This document shows positions 8,333 to 37,187 of a stretch of 64,000 nucleotides of DNA, piece by piece; position 1 is the stretch's first letter; every line of letters begins with the position of its first letter. The notes under the pieces are model-generated. The model had not been told where the DNA came from and searched no databases. It saw only the letters and a program-made list of their open reading frames with translations. This DNA is from Agreia sp. VKM Ac-1783 (GTDB lineage Bacteria > Actinomycetota > Actinomycetes > Actinomycetales > Microbacteriaceae), in assembly GCF_900177765.1 (NCBI RefSeq), contig NZ_FXWI01000001.1, positions 806,001 to 870,000 of the forward strand. The letters run 5' to 3'. Made by a program: the position numbers and the translations under genes.

Positions 8333-9823
8333 ATGGCAACCAGTGGGGTCGCAGGACAAGCAGACACCGACGTGAAAACCGATAAGAAGCTCAGGCGCAA
8401 GGTCATCGCGCTCGCGGCGGCGGGAGCAATCGGAGGCTTCCTCTTCGGATTCGACTCCTCGGTGGTCAACGGCGCGGTCGATGCGATTCAAGACGACTTC
8501 AGCCTGACCGCGGCATTCACCGGCTTCGCCGTCGCCTCCGCTCTTCTCGGCTGTGCGGTCGGCGCCTATCTGGCCGGCCGACTGGCCGACCGTCTCGGAC
8601 GCATCCCGGTGATGCTCATCGGCGCCGTCCTCTTCCTCGTCAGCTCCCTCGGTTCCGGATTCGCCTTCGCCGCGTGGGACCTGACCGTGTGGCGCCTCAT
8701 CGGCGGCCTCGGCATCGGTATCGCCTCTGTCATCGCCCCCGCCTACATCTCCGAGATCGCCCCCAAGGCGATCCGGGGCAGCCTGGCCTCGCTGCAGCAG
8801 CTCGCGATCACCGTCGGTATCTTCACGGCACTGTTGTCCGATGCGGTTCTGGCGAACGTCGCCGGCGGCGCGAACGAGGTCTTCTTCCTCGGCCTCGACG
8901 CCTGGCGGTGGATGTTCCTCGTGTGCGCCGTGCCCGCGATCGTCTACGGTCTCGTCGCTCTTCGGCTGCCGGAGTCGCCCCGCTTCCTTCTGATGACCGA
9001 CAAGAAAGAGAAGGCCACGAAGGTTCTGGCCTCGATCACGCCCGCCAACCAGCTCGACAAGGCCGTCGCAGACATCGAGGCCGGTATTCGCGAAGACGCG
9101 GCCAACGCCGACAAGAGCTCCCTGCGAGGAAAGCGGTTCGGTCTGCTGCCCATCGTGTGGGTCGGAATCATCCTCTCCATGCTGCAGCAGCTCGTGGGCA
9201 TCAACGTGATCTTCTACTACTCGACCACCCTCTGGTCGAGTGTGGGCTTCAAAGAGAGCGACTCTCTCACGATCTCGGTCATCACCTCGGTGACCAATGT
9301 CGCGGTCACCTTCGTCGCGATCTTCCTCGTCGACAAGGTCGGTCGTCGACCCATCCTGTTGTTCGGCTCGGTCGGCATGGCGGTGGCTCTCGGTTCGATG
9401 ACGCTGGCGTTCAGCCAGGCGCAGCTCGTCGATGGCAAGCCCAGCCTCGAGGGTGCGTGGGGAATCATCGCGCTGATCGGCGCCAACCTCTTCGTGGTCG
9501 CCTTCGGCGCCTCCTGGGGCCCGCTCGTCTGGGTGCTGCTCGGCGAGATCTTCCCGACCCGTATCCGAGGTCGCGCCCTCGGCGTCGCGGCTGCTGCACA
9601 GTGGCTCACGAACTTCGCCGTCACCATGACGTTCCCGATCATCTCTCAGGACGTCTCGCTGACGCTGGCCTACGGACTCTACGCGGCCTTCGCCGTGCTG
9701 TCGTTCTTCTTCGTCTTCTTCAAGATTCCCGAGACGAAGGGCGTGGCGCTGGAGGAGACCGGCAGCCTCAGCGTCGTGCGTGGTCGCCGCCGCGAAAAAG
9801 ACGGAGTCGGCGGCGCCAAATAA
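8333..9823 (+). CDS. sugar/proton symporter, MFS sugar porter family
   Basis: Twelve-segment major facilitator of the sugar porter family, 496 residues. Signatures: GGFLFGFDSSVVNGA in segment 1, the loop RLADRLGRIPVM, PESPRFLL after segment 6, QQLVGINVIFYYST in segment 7, DKVGRRPILL, and PETKG at the end of segment 12. These define XylE/GalP/GLUT-like transporters that import monosaccharides with protons. The start ATG has AGAGGGAGCAG just upstream. It stands alone; the specific sugar cannot be told from sequence, though galactose or glucose would suit the upstream operon. Confidence 0.92.
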   Translation: MATSGVAGQADTDVKTDKKLRRKVIALAAAGAIGGFLFGFDSSVVNGAVDAIQDDFSLTAAFTGFAVASALLGCAVGAYLAGRLADRLGRIPVMLIGAVLFLVSSLGSGFAFAAWDLTVWRLIGGLGIGIASVIAPAYISEIAPKAIRGSLASLQQLAITVGIFTALLSDAVLANVAGGANEVFFLGLDAWRWMFLVCAVPAIVYGLVALRLPESPRFLLMTDKKEKATKVLASITPANQLDKAVADIEAGIREDAANADKSSLRGKRFGLLPIVWVGIILSMLQQLVGINVIFYYSTTLWSSVGFKESDSLTISVITSVTNVAVTFVAIFLVDKVGRRPILLFGSVGMAVALGSMTLAFSQAQLVDGKPSLEGAWGIIALIGANLFVVAFGASWGPLVWVLLGEIFPTRIRGRALGVAAAAQWLTNFAVTMTFPIISQDVSLTLAYGLYAAFAVLSFFFVFFKIPETKGVALEETGSLSVVRGRRREKDGVGGAK

Positions 9824-31318: not shown

Positions 31319-33886
31319 GTGAAGGCGATCAGAAGATTCACCGTTCGATCCGTGCTGCCGGAGCGTCTGCGCGCGGTCGGTGAGCTGGCATCCAATCTTC
31401 GTTGGTCGTGGCACGAGCCCACCCGGGCGCTCTTCGCGCGCATCTCACCGGACGACTGGCAGCAGACTGGGGGAGACCCGATCGCGCTGCTCGGCGCGGT
31501 GAGGCCGGAACGCCTCGAGGAGCTGTCGCACGACGAGGGATTCGTCGCCTGGGCGAACAGCCTTCGAGACGACCTCAACCGCTATCTCGCCGAGCCGCGC
31601 TGGTACCAGCAGCTCGAGGGCGAGAAGCCCACCGGCATCGCCTACTTCTCGGCCGAGTTCGGCATCGCCGCCGCCCTTCCCCAGTACTCGGGAGGACTCG
31701 GCATTCTCGCCGGCGATCACCTGAAGGCCGCGAGCGACCTCGGTCTTCCCCTCACGGGAGTGGGCCTCTTCTATCGCGCCGGCTACTTCAGCCAAGCCAT
31801 CTCTCGCGACGGCTGGCAGCAGGAGAGCTACCCGGTGCTCGACCCCGACGGACTTCCGCTCACTGTCTTGCGCCTCGCCGACGGCTCTGCTGCCCACATC
31901 GCTCTGGCGCTTCCCGATGGCCGCGCCCTCTTCGCCCGGGTCTGGCAGGCCCAGGTCGGTCGCGTACGGCTTCTGCTGCTCGACACCGACATCCCTGAGA
32001 ACGCCGAGGATCTTCGCGGCATCACAGACCGTCTGTACGGCGGCGGCGGCGAGCACCGTCTTCTTCAGGAGCTCCTGCTCGGCATCGGGGGAGTCCGCGC
32101 TCTCAAGCTCGCGGCCGAGTTACGCGACGTGCCCGAGCCCGAAGTCTTCCACGCCAACGAAGGCCACGCCGGATTCCAGGGCCTCGAGCGCATCTCCCGA
32201 CTCATCGGAGACGGCCTGTCGTTCGACGCCGCTCTCCAGGTCGTGCGGGCGGGCACCGTCTTCACCACACACACGCCCGTTCCGGCGGGCATCGATCGCT
32301 TCGAGCGCACGCTCGTCGAGCGCTACTTCAGCGGTGACCTGCTTCCCGGTCTCGAGGTCGACGACATCCTGCGCCTCGGGGCGGAGGACTACGAGGGCGG
32401 TTCGTCCGAGGTCTTCAACATGGCCGTCATGGGTCTGCGTCTCGCCCAGCGCGCGAACGGGGTCTCGCAGCTCCACGGCGCTGTGAGCCGCGGCATGTTC
32501 CAGGGCCTCTGGAAGGGATTCGACGTCGACGACGTTCCGATCACCTCGGTGACGAACGGCGTGCACGCCGCGACCTGGACCGACCCTCTGCTGCAGGAGC
32601 TCGCGAGCTCGAAGCTCGGCACCTCCGACACCACGAACGCCGACTGGAACAGCTCCGACGTGAGCGACAGCGACCTCTGGGCTGTGCGCGGCGACATGCG
32701 ACGTCAGCTCGTGCACGACGCCCGCCGCCGAGTGACCGAGGCCTTCACCTTGCAGAACCCGGGCTCGATCGCGCCGGCCTGGTACCAGACGCTCCTCGAT
32801 CCCACCGTGCTGACGATCGGCTTCGCTCGCCGGGTGCCGACCTACAAGCGCCTCACCCTGATGCTGCACGACCCCGCGCGCCTCAAGTCGATTCTGCTCA
32901 ACCCTCAGCGCCCCATCCAGCTCGTGATCGCGGGCAAGTCGCATCCTGCCGACGAAGAGGGCAAGCGGCTCATCCAGCGCCTCGTGCAGTTCGCCTCCGA
33001 CCCCGAGGTCCGTCACCGCATCGTGTTCCTTCCGAACTACGACATCGGCATGGCTCAGCTTCTCTACCCCGGCACCGACGTGTGGCTCAACAACCCGCTG
33101 CGTCCGCTCGAGGCGTGCGGAACATCCGGTATGAAGGCCTCGCTGAACGGCGGACTCAACCTGTCGATCCTCGACGGCTGGTGGAACGAGTACTACGACG
33201 GCGAGAACGGATGGGCGATCCCGACCGCCGACGGCGCGAGCACGCCCGAGGAACGCGACTCCATCGAGGCGGGGGCGCTCTACGACCTGCTCGAACATCA
33301 GGTGGCCACCCGGTTCTACGACCGCAACGCCGACGGAATCCCCGAGCGGTGGATGGCATCGGTGCGGCACACGCTGTCGACTCTGTCGCCCAGCCTCTCG
33401 GCCGAGCGGATGGTGCGCGAGTACACCGAGCGCCTCTACACGAAGGCGGCCGCGGCCGAGCGGGTGATGTCGGCGAGAGACCACGAGGCGGCGCGCGAGC
33501 TGTCGGCCTTCAAGCAGCGCATGACCGCGCACTGGCCCGCCGTGCAGGTCGTGCACGTCGAGTCCGGTGGACTCGACGACACTCCTCAGGTGGGCGACTC
33601 TCTGCATCTGCGTGCCCAGGTGCAGCTCGATGGCATCAGTCCAGCCGACGTCTCGGTCGAGGTCGTCTACGGTCAGGCGGGAACGGGCGACGAGCTGCGC
33701 GATGTGGCCACATTCGCTCTGTCTCCGTCGACCACGTCAGCGACCGAGGCCGCCGGAGTGGTGCTCTTCGAGGGGACCCTCGCGCTCTCGAGTGCCGGAG
33801 CGTTCGGTTACACGGTGCGCGTCGTGCCGAAGCACGCCCACCTCGCGTCGCCGGCGGAACTGGGCCTCATCGCCACGGCCCACTGA
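31319..33886 (+). CDS. glgP: alpha-glucan (glycogen) phosphorylase, DUF3417 type
   Basis: Releases glucose-1-phosphate from alpha-glucans; GT35, PLP-dependent. 855 residues. GTG 31319 is chosen because GGAG lies 8 bases upstream and the protein then starts with the family sequence KAIRRFTVRSVLPERL; the frame stays open far upstream as antisense of glgE. The N-terminal DUF3417 domain holds LASNLRWSWHEPTRALF. Then AYFSAEFGIAAALPQYSGG, VFHANEGHAGFQ, and the PLP lysine in GTSGMKASLNGGLNLS. A beta-rich C-terminal region (about 740-855) follows. Divergent from glgE-glgB, with a LacI-like site between them. Confidence 0.93.
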   Translation: MKAIRRFTVRSVLPERLRAVGELASNLRWSWHEPTRALFARISPDDWQQTGGDPIALLGAVRPERLEELSHDEGFVAWANSLRDDLNRYLAEPRWYQQLEGEKPTGIAYFSAEFGIAAALPQYSGGLGILAGDHLKAASDLGLPLTGVGLFYRAGYFSQAISRDGWQQESYPVLDPDGLPLTVLRLADGSAAHIALALPDGRALFARVWQAQVGRVRLLLLDTDIPENAEDLRGITDRLYGGGGEHRLLQELLLGIGGVRALKLAAELRDVPEPEVFHANEGHAGFQGLERISRLIGDGLSFDAALQVVRAGTVFTTHTPVPAGIDRFERTLVERYFSGDLLPGLEVDDILRLGAEDYEGGSSEVFNMAVMGLRLAQRANGVSQLHGAVSRGMFQGLWKGFDVDDVPITSVTNGVHAATWTDPLLQELASSKLGTSDTTNADWNSSDVSDSDLWAVRGDMRRQLVHDARRRVTEAFTLQNPGSIAPAWYQTLLDPTVLTIGFARRVPTYKRLTLMLHDPARLKSILLNPQRPIQLVIAGKSHPADEEGKRLIQRLVQFASDPEVRHRIVFLPNYDIGMAQLLYPGTDVWLNNPLRPLEACGTSGMKASLNGGLNLSILDGWWNEYYDGENGWAIPTADGASTPEERDSIEAGALYDLLEHQVATRFYDRNADGIPERWMASVRHTLSTLSPSLSAERMVREYTERLYTKAAAAERVMSARDHEAARELSAFKQRMTAHWPAVQVVHVESGGLDDTPQVGDSLHLRAQVQLDGISPADVSVEVVYGQAGTGDELRDVATFALSPSTTSATEAAGVVLFEGTLALSSAGAFGYTVRVVPKHAHLASPAELGLIATAH

Positions 33887-33913
33887 CACACCCTTAGCCA
33901 CCTTCCGCTGGCC

Positions 33914-34005
33914 CCCCTTTCGCGGATGAGGAAACGCTGCCGACACGCCGAGTCATGCTCCCTTCTGAGCGGAGTGTCGCGCGTTTTTCCTCATCCGCGA
34001 AGGGG
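33914..34005. repeat. long palindrome upstream of the DUF559 gene (copy 1)
   Basis: Outer arms CCCCTTTCGCGGATGAGGAA (33914-33933) and TTCCTCATCCGCGAAGGGG (33987-34005) pair with a single-base bulge. The interior adds CGACAC/GTGTCG and GCTC/GAGC. About 92 bases in all. It shares the GATGAGGAA/TTCCTCATC block with the copy at 35002. Confidence 0.8.
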
Positions 34006-34053
34006 TGCCTGGTCGCGGTAGCCAGTCCTCCCCAGGGCGTCAGCGTTCCTTTT

Positions 34054-34092
34054 TTGTTGCCGATGAGGTGATCCGCCCGCTGAGTCATGCCT
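34054..34092 (+). repeat. partial copy of the palindrome's left half
   Basis: GATGAGG followed, after 13 bases, by GAGTCATGC. The same two words occur in the same order in the copy at 33914, where they are 18 bases apart. It overlaps the proposed start of the DUF559 gene. Confidence 0.5.
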
Positions 34093-35025
34093 CTTCAGGG
34101 AATGCTGGCCGGCATGAATGGCGATGCATACGGTTTTCTTCTGACCCACGGCGGTGTTGCACGGCGCCGAGATCTCGAGCGGTGTGGCGTCTCTGGCATG
34201 TCCATCGCCCGCATGGTGCAGCTCGGCATGCTGATCCGGCCCCGAGTCGGCTGGTATTGCCTTCCGGATGTCGACCGTCGCGTAATCGAGGCCGTGCGGG
34301 TGGGCGGGGTCCTCACCTGCGTCTCGGCCGCTGCAGTCGATGGGCTGTGGGTGCTCGACGAGGAGAAACTCCATGTGTGTGTGAGGGGCAACGGTTCAGT
34401 CTTTCGAAGCAGGACTGACGCGACGCGTTATCGGGCACACGATGAACGTGGCGATGTCGTTCTCCACTGGGATGATCAGGCGTGGTCGACCTCTGGAGGG
34501 TACGCGCTTTCGCGGGTTGCCTATCTCCGGCATCTGGTGTCGTGCCAGTCCCATCGAAGCGTCGTCTCGACGCTCGACTCCGCATTGCACCGCGGCGTGC
34601 TGTCAGACCGCGACTTGGGGGAGTTGCGTGGGTCGGTTCCTGCTGTCCACCGCTCGATCATCGATCTGGTGGACGGCCGAGCGGAGAGCGGAGTCGAATC
34701 GGCTGCACGGTTGGGGTTTCTCGCCGCGGGCCTACCCTTCGAGGTTCAGGTTGTCGTATCCGAGGGGCTGCGGGTCGATTTCGTGATCGACGGGGTCATC
34801 GTCGTCGAGGTTGACGGCTCGGAGTTCCACTCAGGCCACGAGGCATTTGTTGCCGACCGGAAGCGCGACGCATTCTTGAATGCCCTCGGCTACCGCGTGC
34901 TGCATTTCACCTATGCGATGGTTTTGTTCGACTGGGAGACCGTTCTTTCGACGATCATCATCGTTCTGCGGCGAGAACGAGCAGTTCGCGCGGGTCTTTC
35001 ACCCCTCCCGCCCTTCCGCCGATGA
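34087..35025 (+). CDS. AbiEi antitoxin-like / DUF559 nuclease-fold protein
   Basis: 312 residues. The N-terminal part (about 12-60; YGFLLTHGGVARRRDLERCG) looks like the winged-helix domain of type IV AbiEi antitoxins. The C-terminal part (about 200-295) is DUF559, a Vsr/PD-(D/E)XK-like fold, with ESAARLGFLAAG, VDFVIDG, VVEVDGSEFH and a basic helix VADRKRDAFLNALGYRV. No partner toxin gene is adjacent. ATG 34087 has no ribosome site; ATG 34114 (MNGDAYGF) is a likely alternative. The stop codon lies inside the second palindrome. The cellular role of this protein group is not known to me. Confidence 0.8.
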   Translation: MPLQGMLAGMNGDAYGFLLTHGGVARRRDLERCGVSGMSIARMVQLGMLIRPRVGWYCLPDVDRRVIEAVRVGGVLTCVSAAAVDGLWVLDEEKLHVCVRGNGSVFRSRTDATRYRAHDERGDVVLHWDDQAWSTSGGYALSRVAYLRHLVSCQSHRSVVSTLDSALHRGVLSDRDLGELRGSVPAVHRSIIDLVDGRAESGVESAARLGFLAAGLPFEVQVVVSEGLRVDFVIDGVIVVEVDGSEFHSGHEAFVADRKRDAFLNALGYRVLHFTYAMVLFDWETVLSTIIIVLRRERAVRAGLSPLPPFRR

Positions 35026-35106
35026 GGAAATCCCTGCGACCCGCCGCACCTACTCGTCAGGTGCACGGCGCGTCGACGATGGTTCCTCATCCGCGCACGG
35101 GAGGGG
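35002..35106. repeat. long palindrome at the end of the DUF559 gene (copy 2)
   Basis: Arms CCCCTCCCG (35002-35010) with CGGGAGGGG (35098-35106), GATGAGGAA (35021-35029) with TTCCTCATC (35083-35091), CGAC with GTCG, and a tip stem GCACCT/AGGTGC around ACTCGTC. It contains the stop codon of the DUF559 gene and separates it from the convergent glgX, so it can also act as a terminator. Confidence 0.8.
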
Positions 35107-35138
35107 GGCGGGGAAGAGGCGGATGCGTGTTCCGCGGG

Positions 35139-37187
35139 TCAGTTCGCGCGGAACAGGCGCAGCGACGACGGCGCCATCTCGATGACTGTTCCCGGCTCGT
35201 AGGTCGGGCCCTCTTCGGGGTTCGGGGCGTCGTTGCCCGAGTCCCAGAGCTCGGTGTACGAGGCTACGCCCAGGTGCACGGGCAGCGTCACGGCGACCGG
35301 TGCCTCGATGCCGTGGATCACGAGCAGGATGCGGTTGAACTCCTCGTGCTCGGGCGTCGAGGCCGCCATGTACTGCAGGGTCCGGTTCTCTGCGGAGTTC
35401 CAGTCGTAGACAGACATCGACGAGCCGTTTGCGTCGTACCAGTCCATCTGGCTGGCGCTCGGTGTGGTCTCGCCGAAGATGCCGAATCTGACCGGACGCA
35501 GGGCGGGGTTCTCGCGCCTCAGCTTCAAGAGGTGCTGCGTGGTCTTCCAATGGTCTTTCTGCCAGCGCCGCCTGTCCCAGCTCAGCCAGGTGAGTTCGCT
35601 GTCGTGACAGTAGGCGTTGTTGTTGCCCTTCTGGCTGCGACCGAACTCGTCGCCGGCGGTGATGAGAGGAACTCCCGCCGAGAGCAGCAGGGTGCCCATG
35701 AGATTGCGCATCGCCTGGCGCCGCGACGCCTCGATCGGCCGCGACGACGTGGGCCCCTCGACGCCGTGGTTGAACGACATGTTGTTGTCGGTGCCGTCGC
35801 GATTCGACTCGCCGTTGCCCACGTTGTGCTTCGAGTCGTATGCGGTGAGGTCGGCCATCGTGAAGCCGTCGTGGGCCGTGATGAAGTTGATCGACGACAG
35901 CGGTCCGCGATGCTGCGCGAAGGTGTTCGACGATCCCGCCAGCCGCGTCGCGAGCATGCCCACGCCGTCGCCCGGGTTGCCGTGCTCGCGGATCGATCGG
36001 ATGTCACGCAGCCAGAACTTGCGCATCCGGTCGCGGTAGCGGTCGTTCCACTCCGACCAGCCATCGGGAAAATTGCCGGTCTGCCATCCGCCCATGCCGA
36101 CATCCCACGGCTCGGCGATCATCTTGACGTTCTGCAGCAGCGGATCGGACACGATCTGAGTGAGAAGCGGATGCTGCGGGTCGTAGTAGTGGTCGGCGTT
36201 GCGTCCCAGGGTCGCTGCGAGATCGAAGCGGAATCCGTCGACCTGCACCTCGTTCGCCCAGAACCGCAACGAATCGAGGATCATGCGTGAGACCGCCGGG
36301 GTGGCGGTGTTGATGCTGTTGCCGCATCCGGTGACGTCGATGTAGGTGCCGCCCGCTGTCTGGCGGTAGTAGCTGGCGTTGTCGATGCCGCGGAAGCTGG
36401 TGGTCGGACCCCCGGGGCCCTCCTCGGCCGTGTGGTTGTAGACCACATCCATGAGCACCTCGATGCCGGCCTCGTGCAGAAGCTTGACCATGCCTTTGAA
36501 CTCGCGCAGATTCGCACTGGGTCCCTGCGCCTGCGCCGCCTTCGACGCGTACAGCGCGTGCGGGCTGAAGAATCCGAGGGTGTTGTAGCCCCAGTAGTTG
36601 CGGAGGCCCTGCTTGATGAGCCGCTGCTCTGAGACGAACGACTGCACGGGCAGCAGCTGCACGGCCGTGACGCCGAGATTCTTCAAGTACCCGATGGTCG
36701 TCTCATGCGCGAGGCCGGCATAGGTTCCCCGAAGCTCTTCGGGGATGCGCGGGTTGAGTTCGGAGAGACCCTTGAGATGCGCCTCGTAGATCACGGTGTG
36801 GTCGAGCGGCGTGTTGGGCTTCGCGACGCCGGCCCAATCGAACGACTGATCGACGACGACCGAGCGCTGCGATCCCGAACTCAGCCGCTGGATGCCCTTG
36901 CCGTAGGGATCGAGGAGAAGCCGCGAGGGGTCGAAGCGGTGGGTCGGCCCGTGCGGCCCTGAGACGCGGAGGTTGTAGCGGCGACCGGGGACCAGCTCCC
37001 TCGTGCGGCCGAACCACACCCCGTGCCGATCCCGCGCGAGATCGACGGTCTTGTAGATCCAGTTGGCGTCCTTGTCGTCGAACAGGCAGAGTTCGACCTT
37101 GTCGGCGTGCTCCGACCAGACGCGGATCTCGCCTCCGTGGGCGGTGAGGCGAACGCCCATGTTCGCGAGGGGATCGGCGGCAGTCAT
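35139..37187 (-). CDS. glgX: glycogen debranching enzyme GlgX
   Basis: Isoamylase-type enzyme cutting alpha-1,6 branches of phosphorylase limit dextrin; a close alternative is TreX, the debranching partner of TreYZ. 682 residues. N-terminal CBM48 domain (1-100), barrel with YEAHLKGLSELNP, VYNHTAEEGPGG, the nucleophile Asp in VDGFRFDLAATLGR (about residue 320), Glu in MIAEPWDVGMGG (about 358), and ITAHDGFTMADLTAYDSKHN. ATG at 37187 has no Shine-Dalgarno; TACTCT lies seven bases upstream. The downstream end faces the DUF559 gene. Confidence 0.93.
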   Translation of the reverse strand: MTAADPLANMGVRLTAHGGEIRVWSEHADKVELCLFDDKDANWIYKTVDLARDRHGVWFGRTRELVPGRRYNLRVSGPHGPTHRFDPSRLLLDPYGKGIQRLSSGSQRSVVVDQSFDWAGVAKPNTPLDHTVIYEAHLKGLSELNPRIPEELRGTYAGLAHETTIGYLKNLGVTAVQLLPVQSFVSEQRLIKQGLRNYWGYNTLGFFSPHALYASKAAQAQGPSANLREFKGMVKLLHEAGIEVLMDVVYNHTAEEGPGGPTTSFRGIDNASYYRQTAGGTYIDVTGCGNSINTATPAVSRMILDSLRFWANEVQVDGFRFDLAATLGRNADHYYDPQHPLLTQIVSDPLLQNVKMIAEPWDVGMGGWQTGNFPDGWSEWNDRYRDRMRKFWLRDIRSIREHGNPGDGVGMLATRLAGSSNTFAQHRGPLSSINFITAHDGFTMADLTAYDSKHNVGNGESNRDGTDNNMSFNHGVEGPTSSRPIEASRRQAMRNLMGTLLLSAGVPLITAGDEFGRSQKGNNNAYCHDSELTWLSWDRRRWQKDHWKTTQHLLKLRRENPALRPVRFGIFGETTPSASQMDWYDANGSSMSVYDWNSAENRTLQYMAASTPEHEEFNRILLVIHGIEAPVAVTLPVHLGVASYTELWDSGNDAPNPEEGPTYEPGTVIEMAPSSLRLFRAN

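Follow-up and report, generated by a model that had tools for sequence, protein, structure and literature searches.

An AbiEi-DUF559 gene flanked by two palindromes in Agreia: a proposed independent analogue of REP/RAYT systems with an unrelated predicted nuclease

Do a nuclease gene and the two long palindromes between which it is located form a unit, or are the palindromes ordinary terminators around a resident gene? This question is raised by a DUF559 gene in the genome of Agreia sp. VKM Ac-1783, which we take to belong to the class Actinomycetes. The stretch of DNA analyzed, called the window below, is 64,000 nucleotides long, and the gene is located between two glycogen genes. The names glgP, glgX, hemB, hemL, fah, gltX, terC and leuC are used here on the presumption that the translations, or the first-pass annotation of this DNA, identified these genes correctly. 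The data presented below suggest that the gene and its palindromes look like an independently evolved counterpart of the REP/RAYT systems, based on an unrelated enzyme.

The features of the unit are listed in Table 1. The two related palindromes described in the first-pass annotation are both present, with GATGAGGAA and TTCCTCATC common to the two; the core, which extends from the former sequence to the latter, is exactly 71 bp long in both cases, and the gene does stop within the second palindrome. CGCG is found outside the common arms of both palindromes, apart from the left side of palindrome 2, where CGCC occurs. The flanking genes are convergent, the stop codon of glgP ending at 33886 and that of glgX being located at 35139 on the other strand. 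The partial copy said to overlap the gene start (GATGAGG at 34062, GAGTCATGC to 34090) is present as well, and its score was reached in 2 of 2000 shuffles, a figure which applies to a candidate picked post hoc.

Table 1. Features of the palindrome-flanked unit (positions in the window)
Feature	Position	Strand	Remarks
Whole stretch between the stop codons of both flanking genes	33887..35138	.	1252 bp
Upstream palindrome (palindrome 1)	33914..34005	.	Core 33925-33995, 71 bp
Parts of palindrome 1			Outer arms CGCGGATGAGGAAA / inverse; inner boxes CGACACGCCG / CGGAGTGTCG; free loop of about 19 nt
Degenerate partial copy, overlaps gene start	34062..34104	+	GATGAGG ... GAGTCATGC
AbiEi-type winged helix + DUF559 (predicted Vsr-like nuclease) gene	34087..35025	+	312 aa
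Downstream palindrome (palindrome 2)	35002..35106	.	Core 35021-35091, 71 bp; overlaps the gene's last codons

The palindromes belong to a repeat family, as had been proposed, and are more than a chance occurrence, since the exact pattern was found at six places in the 3.76-Mb genome of the window (G000) versus none in the case of the reversed control pattern. A covariance model built from these six copies identified 8 places in G000, 7 in G150 (taken to be Agreia pratensis) and 18 in G153; the five remaining genomes of the eight compared in the genus gave no match. Six of the eight copies in G000 and five of the seven in G150 are located away from the gene, which is present in G150 with the same flanking palindrome pair as in the window. 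In G153, no DUF559 gene was found within 1 kb of any of the 18 copies, which have a mean score of 67 bits, versus 75 bits for the 15 copies in G000 and G150, with a model built from G000. These 18 copies without any adjacent gene speak against the simplest model in which the nuclease copies its sites. On the main contig of G153, which starts with dnaA, the copies avoid a 1.21-Mb arc opposite the origin (P about 0.01). The idea that the family is confined to one species was rejected: when 150 genomes of the taxonomic family were searched with the exact pattern of the window's arms only G000 gave matches, but neither G150 nor G153 was included in that sample.

Since the arms are specific to each gene, the association with DUF559 genes was tested on palindrome pairs and not on the window's own arms. 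The set of loci was composed of the best 60 of 93 rows of relatives (one fragment in that range was dropped) and the five genes of G000, giving 65 genes from 26 genomes. The loci are not fully independent, 21 of the 65 genes, including orthologues, coming from one genus. Palindromes with a score of at least 12 were present on both sides of 39 of the 65 genes versus 11 of 246 control ORFs, and on neither side of six genes. The upstream and downstream palindromes have a common word of at least 12 bases at 25 of the 65 genes versus none of the 302 control ORFs from the same stretches (Fisher 1.8e-21); such words occur in 23 of 4160 locus-swapped pairs, and this length is not reached at the other 40 loci. 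With words of at least 9 bases, the numbers are 35 of 65 genes versus 1 of 302 control ORFs, and 362 of the 4160 swapped pairs. In this form, the check suggested in the first-pass annotation, that of comparing DUF559 genes with other genes, favors the link with the palindromes, and the longer words were also found outside the window's genus, at 17 of 44 genes, in 8 of 18 genomes. In a second set of 30 loci from the class, one per genome (two of which, L316 and L327, were already in the first set) and without control ORFs, common words of at least 9 bases occurred at 3 of the 8 loci belonging to the family and 8 of the 20 from other orders, but at neither of the two remaining loci. A lenient local-alignment score between the flanks was discarded as uninformative, since 217 of the 246 controls reached 18, and common words in palindrome pairs were used instead. 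The arms vary from one locus to another, even between paralogues carried by one genome. According to the first-pass annotation, palindromes occurring at unrelated gene ends with no link to DUF559 genes would be ordinary terminators. The first part of this description applies to four of the six exact copies in G000, which are located at gene ends with no DUF559 gene beside them. The link with the gene survives, because the arms are common to both sides of a gene and differ between loci.

When 33 copies belonging to the window's family were compared, the sequences of the outer arm CGCGGATGAGGAAA and of the inner box GCGACACSCCG proved to be preserved with some variation, an inner box being flipped in some copies. 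The core is 70-73 bp long in the 31 of these copies in which it could be measured, while the loop and the linker are free. The interiors are largely unrelated among the copies of one family, and are therefore not as expected from recent copying. No excess of base pairs was detected in the interiors of five of the six sets tested (5-17 non-redundant copies, two of the sets being length classes of one family), and in the sixth set, that of G029, a weak excess was observed (34 of 2000 shuffles). The fact that the boxes and the length are kept in five of the six sets, and base pairing is not, points to a site which would be read as a duplex by a dimer rather than as a hairpin. Since the boxes have been preserved in old copies, some selection must be at work beyond what the copying model names.

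The comparison with relatives, suggested by the first-pass annotation as a way of looking for an empty site, showed that the unit is missing from six of the eight genomes of the genus. The glgP-glgX spacer is 1252 bp long in G000 and G150, where the unit is present; without it, the spacer measures 3, 6, 46 and 61 bp in G153, G077, G140 and G151, respectively, and at least 130 bp in G152, where the flanks align only in part. In G154 (L213 / L217), it measures 865 bp and carries two small ORFs instead of the unit; by eye, these resemble an antitoxin/GNAT-acetyltransferase pair. The spacer between hemB and hemL carries a palindrome of the window's family only in G000 among the eight genomes; it is 18-23 nt long in G077, G150, G154, G140 and G153 and 88 nt long in G152, and in G151 (L347) it harbors a different palindromic repeat, of the CCCTTCGACA...TGTCGAAGGG type. 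The latter repeat is also present in the glgP-glgX spacers of G140 and G151 (L211, L212). In the case of fah-gltX, read in four genomes, the palindrome is present in G000, absent in G150 and G077, and other DNA is found in G140. Both G000 and G153 have the one located between terC and leuC, which in G150 seems to have lost its right half by deletion. Palindromes without a gene are thus gained, since the hemB-hemL copy is present only in G000, and they also seem to be lost. No target-site duplication was visible by eye at hemB-hemL or fah-gltX. One intergenic spot, perhaps an insertion hot spot, is occupied by a lone palindrome in G150 and G153 (L283, L271). In another genus (L134) the spot holds a DUF559 gene, and in a third one (L168) such a gene adjoins one of the same neighboring genes.

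Dispersal was traced in the case of the named families, which account for a minority of the arms at the 65 loci. Palindromes of the GGCGGAGAT type were found at 24 places in seven of the eight genomes of the genus (16 of 57 bp, seven of 55 bp and one of 56 bp). Those of the ATTCAGGA type, 59 or 61 bp long, number 16 in G140, 13 in G151, 12 in G153, 10 in G077, 4 in G000 and 3 in G154, the pattern search having detected none in G150 and G152. Longer forms of the latter were found outside these genomes (at least 7 in G021, at least 9 in G022, at least 12 in G029, and single ones in G008 and G026), and the reversed ATTCAGGA patterns had no match in 60 genomes. The largest number of copies of one family found here in a genome was 18. 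All 16 ATTCAGGA copies in G140 lie within 750 kb, on the contig carrying the cognate gene (P 5e-5 for an empty arc of this size if the genome is taken as a circle of 4 Mb), and 16 copies with a core of 68-71 bp lie within 60 kb around a DUF559 gene in G029, where 80 kb were read. Such close clustering does not seem to be general: extra copies less than 5 kb away were detected at 1 of 42 loci, in what is a weak test, as the word used is not always an arm and near copies at the G029 and G021 loci were missed.

The positions of the lone copies bear on whether the gene is simply a resident one, with palindromes that act as ordinary terminators in both directions or as hairpins stabilising the mRNA. 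Seventy distinct lone copies were obtained (75 entries minus two repeat entries from G029 and three copies flanking a DUF559 gene), including some orthologues and a few ATTCAGGA copies from outside the genus which may be due to chance. They lie between tandem genes in 35 cases, between convergent genes in 33 and between divergent genes in one, so that 69 of the 70 are intergenic, and one lies inside a called gene; among 236 neighboring gene pairs of the same stretches, 149 are tandem, 57 convergent and 30 divergent. Convergent spacers are thus over-represented (Fisher 0.0003) and divergent ones under-represented (Fisher 0.003), the neighbors having been called by a codon-usage gene caller trained on G000 genes, which is less sure in G029. 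Terminators would account for the intergenic location and the many convergent neighbors. We nevertheless regard them as an improbable explanation, given that the arms are common to both sides of one gene and differ between loci, that a set length is combined with a free interior, that covariation is absent in five of the six sets, and that six of the eight genomes of the genus do not have the unit; in addition, no Rfam family matched the window at gathering scores. No T run, as in an intrinsic terminator, follows the arms in either of the copies in the window.

The protein encoded by the gene matches DUF559 (1e-9) and AbiEi_4 (2.8e-7) above the Pfam cut-offs, and no other family; no transposase family was matched in Pfam. 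The match with MTES_1575, a family named after a Vsr-type nuclease domain (PMC3710099), is below the cut-off. No match was obtained in NCBIfam at E 0.001 or in PHROGs at 0.01, and the PADLOC models for AbiEi and homing endonucleases matched the protein weakly. Among the predicted catalytic residues, E204, D231 and D257 do not vary in an alignment of 48 sequences, and D243 and H248 hardly do. The AlphaFold2 model (mean pLDDT 92.5, pTM 0.88) was matched by Foldseek primarily to an AbiEi antitoxin (6y8q, E 2.1e-5) over the N-terminal part, next to the homing endonuclease I-Bth0305I (3r3p, E 4.4e-4, TM 0.74 by target), and in sixth place to Vsr (1cw0), and a profile search of solved structures gave 3hrl (1.8e-8) and 3r3p (5.7e-7). 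Because of these results, the protein is predicted to have a winged helix of the AbiEi type at its N-terminus, joined to a nuclease of the Vsr/I-Bth0305I type in which the catalytic residues are kept. The statement in the first-pass annotation that the enzyme is unrelated to the HUH fold agrees with both the Pfam and the fold assignments. Within the class, 122 of 197 genomes have a match to the protein profile at E 1e-15. The identity between DUF559 proteins carried by one genome (n=76 pairs) has a median of 0.355 and amounts to 0.75 in the best pair, and judging from these sequences there is little sign of multiplication of the gene; on the other hand, only two of the eight genomes of the genus have the glgP-glgX unit, which bears on whether the gene jumps. 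In other genera, the DUF559 genes at L121, L134, L157 and L168 show one in-frame stop each; in G153, a DUF559 gene matched as two pieces in different frames (L261, ~8527-9334) near ATTCAGGA arms is possibly decaying.

The resemblance to I-Bth0305I, in both sequence and fold, suggests that the gene might be a selfish one of the homing-endonuclease kind, the nuclease of which would cut spacers devoid of the unit, the palindrome in an occupied spacer blocking the cutting. The existence of full and empty alleles at glgP-glgX would be in line with this process, as would the intergenic spot mentioned above, where lone palindromes (G150, G153) alternate with a DUF559 gene (L134), the gene of L168 being located beside one of the same neighbors. 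Palindromes are gained without the gene, however, whereas homing moves the gene and not the sites alone, and we therefore consider this explanation unlikely. Even less likely, in our opinion, is a defence nuclease, the sites of which would help to tell self from non-self or serve as tethers when DNA enters the cell: the weak PADLOC matches and the variability of the arms between loci would fit in with a defensive role, but the neighbors read from the translations are glycogen genes.

How the protein might recognize its sites was approached by comparing similarities between arms and between parts of the protein at 43 loci, with relatedness uncontrolled. The similarity of the outer arms tracks that of residues 69-112 (0 of 500 permutations), and the similarity of the inner boxes leans towards both residues 69-112 (24 of 500 permutations) and the winged helix (44 of 500). 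The pairs of loci L016/L120 and L125/L130 have the same outer arms and different inner boxes, for example, and their winged helices are 30-36% identical between the pairs versus 72% within them.

The strongest rival explanation is that the sites are operators by which an AbiEi-type winged-helix protein regulates its own promoter and a small regulon, the nuclease domain serving some other purpose. AbiEi antitoxins are autorepressors which bind to inverted repeats (PMC7319586); the boxes are kept as sequence without covariation in five of the six sets, and the upstream site is often located about 80-200 bp before the start of the matched gene. Operators would be expected between divergent genes, however, where only one of the 70 distinct lone copies lies; the second site is located at or past the stop codon of the gene, and sites of 55-90 bp are long for a single regulator. 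All in all, we give this explanation a modest chance, well short of that of the reading we prefer.

The reading which we prefer, at about even chances, is that of a system resembling REPIN/RAYT, in which a nuclease gene has its own family of short dispersed sites and the enzyme is an unrelated one. The protein would bind a bipartite inverted site, with an outer arm and an inner box on each side and a set total length, by means of its AbiEi-type winged helix and the domain following it. The Vsr-like domain would then nick or cut the DNA at or beside the site, and the repair of the break would create further copies of the site, about 100 bp long, in other spacers at gene ends. One such site would be retained on each side of the gene itself, and that on the upstream side may also control its expression. 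The association of the palindromes with the nuclease gene, which the first-pass annotation had put forward, is borne out by the flanking pairs and the empty sites, and the gain of a lone copy is shown as well; a role of the nuclease in moving or maintaining the repeats, as it had also suggested, is something we still infer, and the same goes for the binding and cutting of the site and for cutting as the cause of the copying. A more far-reaching proposal, which we hold to be somewhat less probable than an even chance, is that a system separate from REP/RAYT exists throughout the class Actinomycetes. Its AbiEi-DUF559 nuclease would read a two-part inverted site, recognizing the outer arm through residues ~69-112 and the inner box through the winged helix; it would seed copies of this site at gene ends, in some genomes near the gene, and would evolve a new specificity as the gene diverges.

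In REPIN/RAYT systems (PMC3116915, PMC2817692), the gene is located between two of its own repeats, each gene has one repeat family with extragenic copies, and the REPIN has two conserved ends and a less conserved spacer, the length of which matters: in the GI REPIN, 71 bp separate the first residues of its 16-mers. The same plan is seen here, in keeping with the resemblance to REP/RAYT noted in the first-pass annotation: the gene is flanked by two related repeats, in the window and at 25 of the 65 genes, and the repeat families traced are gene-specific, extragenic and dispersed. The differences are that the enzyme combines an AbiEi winged helix with a predicted nuclease of the Vsr kind and is not a HUH tyrosine transposase, that the compensatory changes reported for REPINs are not found in five of the six sets, that no more than 18 copies of a family were found per genome here, and that the present system was found in the window's class, Actinomycetes. 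Because of the unrelated enzyme and the lack of compensatory changes in these five sets, we do not file the system as a member of the REP/RAYT group, although it seems to work like one.

Other known systems show partial similarities. The N-terminal winged helix (AbiEi_4; 6y8q, E 2.1e-5) is like that of the AbiEi antitoxins of type IV toxin-antitoxin systems (PMC7319586), whereas the window's protein has a C-terminal nuclease domain; an AbiEii-like nucleotidyltransferase toxin was not recognised beside the gene, the adjacent ORFs of which are glgP- and glgX-like by translation. In its C-terminal fold and its acidic and histidine residues, the protein resembles I-Bth0305I, Vsr and DUF559 proteins such as the Caulobacter VsrA (PMC12907096), but it differs from them in having a fused winged helix and in being flanked by gene-specific palindromes. 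The inverted ends and the short non-coding copies are reminiscent of MITEs and insertion sequences, from which the system differs in that no target-site duplication was seen, no transposase family was matched in Pfam and there is little sign that the gene has multiplied. No earlier report of such a system was found in a literature search that left aside most subscription papers and all preprints, and a word search in PMC3733652, which deals with GTAG/CGTC repeats, gave no mention of actinobacteria.

If our reading is correct, the winged-helix/Vsr nuclease would be a second solution, meaning that such partnerships between genes and repeats evolve repeatedly; to our knowledge, dispersed palindromes with a cognate gene have so far been explained by one enzyme fold, that of the HUH transposases. 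A role would also be provided for many actinobacterial genes labelled DUF559 or AbiEi, as well as natural pairs of enzymes and sites with varied specificity, in which to study how nucleases acquire the ability to recognize different DNA sites.

A few minor observations were made on individual stretches. A scan of further contigs gave 67 stretches matching the window's pattern, five of which belong to Agreia pratensis (seven copies), and most of the others show few further pairs beyond the pattern's 9-mers. The stretches from Saprospiraceae SJ208 (L050, L065, L069, L082 and L085) were rejected: they carry a short tandem repeat of the GATGAGGAATGAGG type and look unrelated to the DUF559 system. 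A near-perfect single palindrome of 69 bp in a Myxococcaceae MAG (L026, 23-91) fits the arm pattern by itself. In A. pratensis (L284, 1013-1500), two copies of the window's family lie 417 bp apart, both with the inner box in the reversed orientation. At L174, in G156, the flanking palindromes have near-perfect long stems, unlike those of the families tested for covariation, and the copies differ by one change which is matched on both arms.
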